A DNA stretch of 64,000 bases from Tridacna crocea. Its lineage: Eukaryota; Mollusca; Bivalvia; Cardiida; Cardiidae. The position numbers were made by a program, and so were the translations under genes. Shown piece by piece: positions 4,049 to 36,972 of the stretch. How positions within the stretch are numbered: the first letter of the stretch is position 1; each line of letters begins with the position of its first letter. The stretch spans positions 11,970,245 through 12,034,244 of the forward strand of contig OX031066.1 in assembly GCA_943736015.1 (NCBI GenBank), given 5' to 3'. The notes under the pieces were generated by a model. It did not search any database. It was not told the origin of the DNA and saw only the letters and a list, made by a program, of their open reading frames with translations.

Positions 4049-4131
4049 GCTCTCTCTCTCTCTCTCTCTCTCTCTCTCTCTCTCTCTCTCTCTCTCTCTC
4101 TCTCTCTCTCTCTCTCTCTCTCTCTCTCTCT
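4049..4131 (+). repeat. (CT)n tract
   Basis: About 40 uninterrupted CT units at the outer edge of the left arm. Confidence 0.9.
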
Positions 4132-4900
4132 GGTAAGGGGCCATGGGAAGGGGAAGGGAAGGGAAGGGAGGGAGGGGGCGGGGCTGGGGCCATTGGTCAA
4201 ATGAAAGGAACACCACTTTTGTGGAGCTCAACTTTATGCCAAGTATAAGGCTTAAAAGTATGCAAAATGTGCAGGTTTTATTCACAATTTACAAGACGAC
4301 CCTACGGTTTGTTCATTTTGAAAATGAAACAGAGATTTGTCGACACCTCAACAGTTATTCAAGAATAATAAATGTTTTACTTTATTTCAGCTTGTCTTTA
4401 TCTACTCTACTAAATTGATTGAATTAAACGATTAGATAGAAATAAGTTATATACGCCCGTCTGACTTTGATACCAAACAAATACTTAAATTCTGTTTTAA
4501 AATTAATACAAAAAAATTCACCCAACAACTATATATAGAATCAAAACGCTAAGCCTGGAAGCCCGTAATGGCGTTTTGATAGACGTAGCCCGGGGATACT
4601 AACTGTTGAAACTAACAGATCAAAAGAAGTGAACATTACCCGATATCGATGAAAAAAAAATCTGTTTGAAGTTGCTCCCGTTTTCTTCGTATTTCTTCTT
4701 GTAAAAATGAACACTTAATTAACAAGAATTGTAATGCAATAATACTGACTTTGACAGACAAGCGATCATTGTGGAGAAAGGAAAAATTGTTTGTAGGAAA
4801 AAGGCATTTGAAATGTAAGGAATGAGGGTTATCACAATGTTTGCAAACGAAACGCCATGTTTTAAAGGCCCTGGTCGTGCCCCTGTCCCCAGCTCTGGCT
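4131..4900 (+). repeat. Fold-back element, left terminal repeat (left arm)
   Basis: Starts with GGGGCCATTGGTCAAATGAA-type sequence next to the CT tract and runs to tttaaaggccctggtcgtgc. It is inverted at 7140-8130, where the copy is interrupted by the family A element 7410-7631. Conserved landmarks include atagacgtagcccgggg and cccaacaactatatatag. Confidence 0.75.
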
Positions 4901-5907
4901 CCCTTTCTTTTTATTTCATATCTTCTCTCTCTCTCTCTCTCTATCTCTTTTATTTTCTTTGTTTCTTTCTCTCTCTTTTTATTTTCTTTTTTCTCTCTTT
5001 CTCTTACATTTTCCCCCTCGCTCCCTCCCTCTTCATCAGTCTTTCATGTCCGACAAAGTCCATTGTCGTTGAAAGACTGAACTTCGAAAAGGTCTTGAAA
5101 AGCAGAAATATGTGCACTGGCCACCTTAGTACAGCTGAAATTATGTACAAAACAGTCATTAACACGACAAAACCAAGAATAAAATGATATAAAATCAAAC
5201 CTTTACCACACGATCCCAAGTTTTTCATGCCCTTTAGAATAAAAATGAAAAAAAAATGTTGGAAAAAGGCAAAATGGTGTTAACCAGGCTCTAAATTCAC
5301 CATTCATCATTCTTAAAAACATTCTTGGTCTTATTCTCCAGAATTTTCTAAGTTTGAAAGTAAGACAAATTCAGATTGGCTAAACCAAATGGTGCTGGTG
5401 TACTGGTGTAAGAAACTCCAGGAAAGCACTCTTTGCAGTTCTTCCCTACATCTCATTTTGAATTCCGATATTTTTTCAGTCTCTTTACATTTTTTGTCTG
5501 TATTTATGGCAGTCCGGATTTGGGTCTCTTTTGCTGACAATCCGTCAATTGGTGAGCCCTAAAACAGTTTGTCATTTGTTCATGCTTTCAGACAGTTTCT
5601 CCTTGAGTCTTTCTTTTTGTCCCTTTTTATGACAAAACTAAAGGAACAAATAACATAGGGAGAAAGAAAGAAATTGAAAAGCGGGGCTTTCTTTTGAGTA
5701 GCAATTTGTCTCGGAGATCTCAAGTGGACATTTCCAAGAAATAACATGAAACCTTGGTCACTATCGTTTCCGCCCTCGTCTGCAATGTCTAGCTACTTTT
5801 CCACTAGAGTGTCTTTTCGTCCGTCTATCTGTTTGACTTCTAGTTCGGTTGTTTGTCTGTATGTATGTCTACGACATACGAAAATGTATTTGAAAAAAGA
5901 AATATCT

Positions 5908-6054
5908 TTAACCCTTTACCAAACGACAAAATTTTATACTGGTTCAAATTGAAAGCACTTGCAGACAACAAAATAAAGGTAACTCAAAAATTGAAATTCG
6001 TTTCCAGCAGGCTAGTAAACATTTTGAGAAAAGGAGAAAATGCTGGTAGTCCAG
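5908..6054 (-). mobile_element. Family A, half copy
   Basis: End 2 and one arm of the hairpin remain; homology stops after the centre. It has an inverted counterpart at 34977-35119. Confidence 0.7.
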
Positions 6055-6315
6055 TGGCTGCTTTCGTTCGTATTGCGTTTAACGTCATTTTCAACATTAT
6101 CTCAGCTATATTGCGACAGCCAGTGCACCAATATATCGTTTTCTCGAGTTTCTATTACTAGTGCTCGGCGCAAGTCTTTATTAGCTACTGGCTGCTTTTG
6201 CATGTAATCCTCTTTGATCAACAACGATTTGCGGCGAGAAATAAATGAACCCAGTCGCAATGATTATCATCAATTCTCGGAAAGGAAAAGGCGGAGCTGC
6301 AATTTTGAAGAGCTC

Positions 6316-6484
6316 CTAACCCTTTACCGCACAATCCTTACGTTTAACGCACTGCAAGAAAATGCCTGGCAACCAGCATTTTCTTCTTTTTCCAGATTGC
6401 TTTCTTGCCTCCCCAAATAAAATTTGAATTAAGCAGTCACTTTTATTTCCTCGTCAGCAAACGCTCTCGATTTTGGACTATTCT
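6316..6484 (+). mobile_element. Family A, decayed copy
   Basis: End 1 is recognisable (ctaaccctttaccgcacaat) with a degraded hairpin; end 2 is truncated. Counterpart at 34548-34711. Confidence 0.65.
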
Positions 6485-6657
6485 AAAAAAAAAATTCCGT
6501 ATGGTAAATATACTATTATATCTTCCTGGAAAAATGAGCTGGAACACCTACATTTGTTTGTTCTTATTGGAGTTTAACGTTACTTTAACAGTTTAGGTCA
6601 TATCAAAGTGTCAAATGCACACATTCATTGTGTTTCCTGGCTTTCTCAAACAGGTAA

Positions 6658-7128
6658 AGAGAGAGAGAGAGAGAGAAAGAGAGACGGACAGAGAATGAGA
6701 GAGAGAGAGACGGACAGAGAATGAGAGAGAGACGGACATAGAGAGAGACATACAGAGAATGAGAGAGAGAGACGGACAGAGAATGAGAGAGAACAGAGAG
6801 AGAGAGAGAGAGAGAGAGAGAGAGACGGACAGAGAATGAGAGAGAGAGAGAGAGACAGACAGACAGAGAATTGGAGAGAGAGAGACCGACAGATAATGAG
6901 ACAGACGGACAGAGAGAGAGACATACAGAGAATGAGAGAGAGAGAGACGGACAGAGAATGAGAGAGAACAGAGAGAAAGACGGACAGAGAATGAGAGAGA
7001 GAGAGAGACGGACACAGAGCGAGACAGACAGAGAATGAGAGAGACAGAGAGAGAGACAGGGACAGAGAAAGAGAGAGAGAGGGGGACAGAGAATAACAGA
7101 GAGAGAGAGAGAGTGAGAGAGAGAGAGA
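6658..7128 (-). repeat. GA-rich minisatellite
   Basis: Units of about 18-30 bp (gagagagacggacagagaat) mixed with pure GA; expanded to 471 bp here versus 248 bp at 34124-34371. Confidence 0.9.
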
Positions 7129-34711: not shown

Positions 34712-34976
34712 GAGCTCTTCAAAATTGCAGCTCCGCCTTTTCCTTTCCGAGAATTGATGATAATCATTGCGACAGGATTTATTCCTTTCTCGCCCAAAAT
34801 CGTTGTTGATCAAAGAGGATTACATGCAAAAGCAGCCAGTAGCTAATAAAGACTTGCGCCGAACACTAGTAATAGAAACTCGAGAAAACCATACATTGGT
34901 GCACTGGCTGTCGCAATATAGCTGAGACAATGTTGAAAATGACGTTAAACGCCATACGAACGAAAGCGGCCACTGG

Positions 34977-35119
34977 ACTACCAGCATTTTCTCCTTTTCC
35001 CAAAATGTTTACTAGCCTGCTGGAAACGAATTTCAATTTTTGAGTTACCTTTATTTTGTTGTCTGCAATTGCTTTCAATTTGAACCAGTATAAAATTTTG
35101 TCGTTTTGTAAAGGGTTAA
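34977..35119 (+). mobile_element. Family A, half copy, right arm
   Basis: Counterpart of 5908-6054; one hairpin arm plus end 2. Confidence 0.7.
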
Positions 35120-36018
35120 AGATAATTCTTTTTTCAAATACATTTTCGTAGACATACATACAGACAGACAACCGAACTAGAAGTCAAACAGATAGACGGA
35201 CGAAAAGACACTCTAGCGGAAAAGTAGCTAGACATTGCAGACGAGGGCGGAAACGATAGTGACCAAGGTTTCATGTTATTCTTGGAAATGTCCACTTGAG
35301 ATCTCCGAGACAAATTGCTACTCAAAAGAAAGCCCCGCTTTTCAATTTCTTTCTTTCTTCCTATGTTATTTGTTTCTTTAGTTTTGTCATAAAAAGGGAC
35401 AAAAAGACAGACTCAAGGAGAAACTGTCTGAAAGCCTGAACAAACGACACACTGTTTTAGGGCACACCAAGTGACGGATTGTCAGCAAAAGAGACCCAAA
35501 TCCGGACTGCCATAAATACAGACGAATAATCTAAAGAGACTGAAAAATATCGGAATGCAAAATGAGATGTAGGGAAGAACTGCAAAGAGTGCTTTCCTGG
35601 AGTTTCTTACACCAGTACACCAGCACCATTTGGTTTAGCCAATCAGAATTTGTCTTACTTTTAAATTTAGAAAATTCAGGAGAATAAGACCAAGAATGTT
35701 TTTAAGAATGATTGGTGAATTTAGAGCCTGGTTAACAGCATTTTGCCATTTTCCCACAAAATTTTCCATTTTTTTTTTCTATAGGGCATGAAAAACTTGG
35801 GATTGTATGGTAAAGGTTTGATCTTATATCATTTTGTTCTTGGTTTTGTCGTGTTAATGACTGTTTTGTACATAATTTCAGCTGTACTAAGGTGGCCAGT
35901 GCACATATTTCTGCTTTTCAATACCTTTTCGAAGTTCAGACTTTGTCGGACATGAAAGACTGATGAAGAGGGAGGGAGCGAGGGGGGAAATGTAAGAGAA
36001 AGAGAGAAAGAAAGAAAA

Positions 36019-36055
36019 TAGAGAGAGAGAGAGAGAGAGAGAGAGAGAGAGAAAC
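36019..36055 (+). repeat. (GA)n tract inside right arm
   Basis: Separates terminal repeat from interior; counterpart of the CT-rich stretch at 4920-5030. Confidence 0.8.
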
Positions 36056-36109
36056 AAAGAAAATAAAGGAGAGAGAGGATATGAAAAAGAAAGAGAGCCA
36101 CTGCTTAGG

Positions 36110-36865
36110 ACAGGGGCACGACCAGTGCCTTTAAAACATGGCTTGTGCAAACATCGTGATAACCCTCATTCCTTACGTTTCAAATGCCTTTTTCCTACAA
36201 ACAATTTTTCTTTTCTCCACAATGATCGCGTGTCTGTCAAAGTCAGTATTATTGCATGACAATTCTTGTTAATTAAGTGTTCATTTTTACAAGAAGAAAT
36301 ACGAAGAAAACGGGAGCAACTTCAACCAGATTTTTTTTTCATCGATATCGGGTAATGTTCACTTCTTTTGATCTATTAGTTTCAACAGTTAGTATCCCCG
36401 GGCTACGTCTATCAATACGCCATTACGGGCTTCCAGGACTTAGTGTTTTGATTCTATATATAGTTGTTGGGTGAATTTTTTTGTATTAATTTTAAAACAG
36501 AATTTAAGTATTTGTTTGGTATCAAAGAGAGACGGGCGTATATAACTTCTTTCTATGTAATTGTTTAATTCAATCAATTTAGTAGAGTAGATAAAGACGA
36601 GCTGAAATAAAGTAAAACATTTATTATTCTTGAATAACTGTTGAGGTGTCGACAAACCTCTGTTTCATTTTCAAAATGAACAAACCGTAGGGTCGTGTTG
36701 TAAATTGTGAATAAAAGTTGCACATTTTGCATACCTTTAAGCCTTATACTTGGCATAAAGTTGAGCTCCACAAAAGTGGTGTTCCTTTACATTTGACCAA
36801 TGGCCCCAGCCCTGCCCCATCCTCTCCCATGGCCCCGCCCCATCCCCTCCCCAGCCTCGCCCCCA
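36110..36865 (-). repeat. Fold-back element, outer terminal repeat (right arm)
   Basis: Inverted relative to 33133-34110 and equivalent to 4131-4900. It ends at a GA tract of about 107 bp. Confidence 0.75.
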
Positions 36866-36972
36866 GAGAGAGAGAGAGAGAGAGAGAGAGAGAGAGAGAG
36901 AGAGAGAGAGAGAGAGAGAGAGAGAGAGAGAGAGAGAGAGAGAGAGAGAGAGAGAGAGAGAGAGAGAGAGAG
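36866..36972 (+). repeat. (GA)n tract
   Basis: About 53 uninterrupted GA units at the outer edge of the right arm. Confidence 0.9.

Follow-up and report, generated by a model that had tools for sequence, protein, structure and literature searches.

Results

A stretch of 64,000 nucleotides from the bivalve Tridacna crocea (GenBank assembly GCA_943736015.1, contig OX031066.1, positions 11,970,245 to 12,034,244 of the forward strand; this whole stretch is called the window below) carries a TPR gene between two long inverted arms. The gene is visible as an open frame of 1,072 codons from stop to stop at 23959–27177 on the plus strand (Pfam TPR_12, E 2.6e-24), arm A occupies 4050–8164 (plus) and arm B 33068–36972 (minus). 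These arms are the subject of this work and they are parts of a large transposon with many copies across the T. crocea genome, which is most likely a non-autonomous Helentron (HINE). The original prediction had reported mirrored blocks of about 4.4 kb, and comparison of the window with itself indeed returns all three inverted matches, namely 4050–6884 against 36946–34127 (92%), 6858–8164 against 34370–33097 (86%) and 8168–8498 against 32798–32471 (87%), which is far beyond chance. In a base-by-base alignment A and B differ at 172 of 3,529 aligned sites with 40 gap openings, two simple-sequence segments (an AG array and one CT-rich segment) being left out of this count, and B shows a few hundred additional bases between the arm proper and the strip next to the spacer. 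The outer border of both arms is a CT run, at 4050 and at 36972.

Arm A represents the palindromic core of the element and lies between simple repeats. The left half of its internal inverted repeat (4182–5004, plus) pairs with 7042–8061, of which 7409–7631 (plus) is a nested repeat of about 230 bp resembling a miniature inverted-repeat transposable element (MITE) that is also found in B at 33603–33829. Such MITE-like repeats sit at identical places in both arms and their family is scattered through the window, where many palindromic copies occur on both strands, for example at 15108–15337, 18736–18966 and 59757–59988. Within A, 4182–4604 and 7632–8061 are identical at 386 of 422 sites, and the halves of B, which is palindromic likewise, at 386 of 421. 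As the halves inside one arm differ at 36 (A) and 35 (B) of these sites, compared with 13 of 422 and 17 of 426 between the matching halves of A and B, the palindrome predates the split of the two arms.

To see how far the sequence is dispersed we searched the assembly of 1.049 Gb in 31 contigs, in which the window corresponds to C11:11970245–12034244. With the first 1,152 bases of arm A as query 499 candidate places were obtained, and the 40 that were scored contained 62 matching pieces. At least 40 long pieces (at least 776 bases) were found among them, A itself and B included, and apart from A they are 88–94% identical; counting A, B ranks eighth by score, and the best other copy is located on C18 (94%). 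The right end of arm A together with the adjoining strip (7128–8500) gave 6,561 candidates, a number that is inflated because this query holds a MITE, and with 40 of them scored the resulting counts are lower bounds. The strip (8168–8500) adjoins the core with at least 130 bases at no fewer than 17 places beyond A and B, and at 12 of those 17 with at least 233 bases. Its earlier description as a single-copy sequence on the spacer side therefore had to be given up. With dispersed matches to the core, dispersed matches to the strip and the 191 left and 106 right termini described below, the arms turn out to be the common dispersed repeat that the original prediction had named as speaking against its own explanation.

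We then took ten regions around other copies from the genome and compared them with the window. Copy A extends well beyond the arm, from 551 to 9270 (plus), with one terminus at 551 and the other one missing, and it is colinear with copies elsewhere in the genome; C11c, the copy at C11:11926093, shares with it 548–1707, 2521–3764, 4096–8077 and 8168–9270 at 88–94%. In all coordinates given here A defines the plus orientation of the element, which would be minus in the published HINE orientation. The last of these pieces, 8168–9270 (plus), belongs to the right block of the element, and the former single-copy strip (8168–8498) is simply its beginning. On the other side, 551–1707 and 2521–4049 recur in other copies and are missing from B. 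The lack of homology outside the arms, which had been noted before, consequently holds between A and B only, as the outer side of A belongs to this repeat as well.

The gap between these two left pieces is a later insertion at 1708–2520 (plus), consisting of a GTCC-type microsatellite, four tandem units of about 155 bp and a terminal palindrome. It is missing from C17, C2, C10 and C11c, which are unbroken across the site within a T run. This satellite-bearing insertion resembles the Pearl/Cg_HINE elements of oysters, for which a GTCC microsatellite and units of about 155 bp are likewise described, as far as the available text on them goes (PMC7492417), and its empty site is kept in the four copies. 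Two tandem arrays outside the arms, 1804–2421 and 37981–38661, match each other in inverted orientation at 77% and resembled an outer homology; since the first of them lies inside the later insertion, it does not extend the duplication.

Copy B is a remnant reaching from 36972 to about 30890, with the core in opposite orientation and without left block or terminus. It matches C11c over 36900–33068, 32973–32471, 31694–31527 and 31378–30890. The second of these pieces (32471–32973, minus) is the start of its right block and includes 32799–32973, which is missing in A; as these extra bases match C11c they belong to the transposon family. The last two pieces (within 30890–31694, minus) are further parts of the right block. 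The arms thus appear, from this comparison, to be the stretch that is still common to two differently damaged copies.

Composition varies among the other copies. The left block flanks the core in A, C17, C11c, C10, C11a and C13, and at a threshold of more than 250 bits no left block was seen in C9, C5a, C5b and C11b, no right block in either C17 copy, and not much of the core in C2 and C11b, the region of the latter holding 5,000 masked bases. The length of complete copies varies between about 0.9 kb and about 12 kb.

The ends of this large Helentron-like family are now defined. The left terminus reads AATCAAAGTACTGAAAGTACTAATAGAAGGTGATGGTAG and is exact in the window copy (551–594, plus), in which the hairpin AGTACT-GAA-AGTACT at 557–571 is followed by the subterminal inverted repeat TAGAAGGTGATG at 574–585. 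A 39-base pattern of it has 191 matches in the genome at up to 3 mismatches (88 and 103 on the two strands; control 0). The right terminus, which is common to seven of the regions, reads GAAGGTGATGCTGAGTCATCACCTTCTAAAA and occurs 106 times in the genome with 2 mismatches or fewer (51 and 55 by strand; control 0). None is present in the window, also not at up to 7 mismatches, and a search of the window with a 15-base end motif gave 2 matches against 4.4 expected by chance, one of them being the left terminus itself.

The subterminal inverted repeats, TAGAAGGTGATG near one end and CATCACCTTCTA at the other, agree with the length of about 11–15 bp that is characteristic of HINEs. Read from the right end, TAGAAGGTGATG is followed by six bases and then by its complement CATCACCTTC, and the far end shows the matching subterminal repeat and then the hairpin AGTACT-TTC-AGTACT; hairpins and complementary repeats were read directly from the letters and not folded. 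This agrees with the layout described for HINEs (PMC4067079, PMC7492417), in which the 5′ subterminal repeat has a complementary copy next to it and a hairpin lies near the 3′ end, apart from the distance of the far repeat given below. For the insertion sites, ends were paired by proximity and strand, an eleventh row being a junction between tandem units. In the 10 end pairs no target-site duplication is evident; compared by eye, the two flanks of a pair have nothing but A runs in common. Directly behind the right end, 16 of 18 rows carry an A, which is a T on the other strand (a duplicate row of C5b was not counted), and in A runs host and element bases are indistinguishable. This fits the published TT preference on the opposite strand without proving it.

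The transposon is apparently non-coding. Open frames of at least 110 amino acids in nine other regions and in A have, by eye, mostly simple-sequence-like translations, and 5844–6161, the sole frame of the element that was scanned, has no Pfam family.

For the relationship of the copies a tree of the core was reconstructed from homologues of 4182–6650 with 18 rows, of which 17 entered the topology test as one identical row was dropped; copies with a matching piece shorter than about 1,400 bases (C13, C2, C11b and one piece each of C11a and C5b) stayed outside. B is sister to C11c with a support of 100/97. The pairing of A with B, which had been set by the earlier finding before the tree was made, costs 35.17 log-likelihood units and is rejected (approximately unbiased (AU) test, p=0.0073). 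C11c has the orientation of A, its core lies 37 kb to the left of the core of A and its left end 45 kb to the left of that of A. That the closest relative of B in the tree is found on the same contig is a hint of local spread on C11.

A search for Rep-domain genes gave 32 matches in the genome, all 42 candidates being scored. Helitron Rep-domain matches lie in open frames whose length reaches 2,728 codons, for example at C11:13543642 and C1:69635045, and the genome therefore probably harbours autonomous rolling-circle elements.

Two further regions of the genome contain family members in tandem. At C5:53928882–54014269 (minus) units stand head to tail, and at seven junctions exactly 86 bases separate a right end from the following left end, six of these junctions belonging to one array with a unit spacing of 8.9–11.0 kb; the spacer lengths follow from coordinates and one spacer was read as sequence. 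At C2:51270747–51342596 (minus) five left ends lie on one strand at distances of 17.8–18.0 kb. The one unit of this array that was read contains the core and retrotransposon-like open frames, and no right end was found in it at up to 6 mismatches.

Among the remaining features of the window are tandem arrays at 37981–38661, 39941–41046 and 42747–44016 with units of 157, 156 and 166 bases, respectively, and an open frame of 619 codons from stop to stop at 44225–46084 (minus) without a Pfam family at E up to 0.01. Several tandem motifs of the window also have a bivalve-like appearance.

Discussion

The arms can very probably be explained as the overlap of two separate and differently decayed copies of one large dispersed transposon, most likely a HINE, the two copies having opposite orientations and a distance of about 24 kb. 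Such an element would depend for its movement on a Rep/helicase supplied in trans by an autonomous rolling-circle element, and between its ends it would carry variable passenger sequence, in A and B the palindromic core with nested MITEs. A and B would have arisen as separate copies, with B sharing a recent ancestor with C11c, and both would then have lost ends, A at 9270 within MITE-like sequence and B on both sides. The TPR gene shows no sign of a link to A or B and is probably a bystander.

Several observations weigh against this explanation. Neither A nor B keeps both ends, and 8 of the 14 inner branches of the core tree are open, the place of A itself included. Between the far subterminal repeat and the end there are about 22 bases, compared with 38–60 in mite HINEs according to the part of PMC4067079 at hand. 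Among the 100 listed left ends (of 191), neighbours within 60 kb form 17 same-strand pairs and 1 opposite pair, and among the 40 core places 5 same-strand pairs and 1 opposite pair, the latter being A and B themselves. Inverted neighbours are thus uncommon in the family, because same-strand clusters and tandem arrays predominate; with such small counts and incomplete lists the A–B pair cannot be called remarkable. Finally, 29 of the 32 Rep matches were compared with the ends, three neighbouring pieces of the same loci being left out, and all 29 lie at least 139 kb from every listed end (100 of 191 left and 100 of 106 right ends); also, with up to 1 mismatch allowed, neither of the end motifs occurs in 3,001 bases beside one Rep gene. 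In an autonomous partner the ends may have diverged or may be among those outside the lists. The assignment to the non-autonomous Helentrons rests on structure, because no Rep gene was found near the listed ends, and on these structural grounds a HINE is what the element most likely represents.

Of the competing explanations, the one that survives best regards the palindromic core as an independent DNA transposon with long terminal inverted repeats, which inserted into Helentron-like elements and of which A and B would be two insertions. Its inverted halves, the several copies without left or right block and the 499 candidate core places (mostly unscored), which outnumber the 191 left termini, speak in favour of this idea. 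However, the same strip of the right block flanks the core at the 17 other places and the left block flanks it in the six copies named above, as if all of them had moved together, and we consider an independent core improbable. A target-site duplication of the core is unreadable, since its borders lie in simple repeats.

Much less can be said for an inverted segmental duplication, by which one locus (element and flank) would have been copied in inverted orientation 24 kb away, as the original prediction had proposed. It would agree with a match that runs past the core into 8168–8498 and with nested MITEs common to both arms, but strip and core occur together at 17 other places, so that the unit is not unique, B groups with C11c while the A+B clade is rejected, and B holds a family segment (about 32799–32973) that is missing in A; a duplication of this kind is therefore very unlikely. 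The second wording of that prediction, transposition of a composite unit, came close, as the strip does belong to one dispersed unit, but a special duplication around the gene is very unlikely and the arrangement is probably an ordinary coincidence. Just as hard to maintain is a recombining inversion, in which exchange between the arms would turn round the 24-kb spacer and the TPR gene in it, as the roughly 4 kb of inverted homology within one haplotype are set against a longest identical run of 111 bases and an A–B divergence of 3–7% of sites in 11 of 15 segments, which do not suggest frequent exchange, and nothing in the single assembly points to an inverted spacer.

With two decayed HINE-like copies as the preferred explanation a false lead is removed, and it becomes apparent that, in an animal genome rich in repeats, a gene flanked by long inverted repeats can simply lie between two copies of one transposon and that a strip looking single-copy inside one window can be dispersed genome-wide. 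In our opinion the head-to-tail arrays on the other contigs are a more interesting by-product than the locus itself. It is conceivable, if rather doubtful, that they belong to a giant non-autonomous Helentron family with a palindromic 4-kb core that was amplified to head-to-tail concatemers by rolling-circle read-through; the plainer alternative is that the arrays on C5 and C2 originate from unequal crossing-over after one insertion. If each array goes back to a single event, concatemer formation by end bypass would be naturally recorded in them. The tandem arrays of this family could also serve to test how rolling-circle transposons form concatemers, and tandem insertions have been reported for Helitrons in the available part of PMC5148889.

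Comparison with known systems is possible as far as the accessible parts of the respective papers describe them. The Helitron2 elements (PMC5148889) have asymmetric terminal inverted repeats and hairpins at both ends like the element described here; the examples under study possess, or originate from, a Rep/helicase gene, whereas none was found inside the Tridacna copies or near their listed ends. The HINE/DINE-1 elements of mites and flies (PMC4067079) also have a subterminal repeat few bases from one end and a hairpin near the other, T strings at their borders and a TT preference, which the Tridacna insertions would fit, and differ in the larger distance of the second subterminal repeat from the end, as given above. 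Closest in layout are the oyster non-autonomous Helentrons Cg_HINE/Pearl (PMC7492417), for which likewise no autonomous partner is linked in the text at hand and which share subterminal inverted repeats, a nearby complementary repeat, a terminal hairpin, insertion sites rich in T with no evident target-site duplication and an apparent lack of coding capacity; this likeness is one of layout, as the end sequences were not set letter by letter against the published ones. Cg_HINE/Pearl consist of two flanking modules around short satellite arrays, whereas the Tridacna element can hold a palindromic core of 4 kb together with MITEs. At most, a large new member is added to a known kind of transposon, at a locus that is otherwise ordinary.

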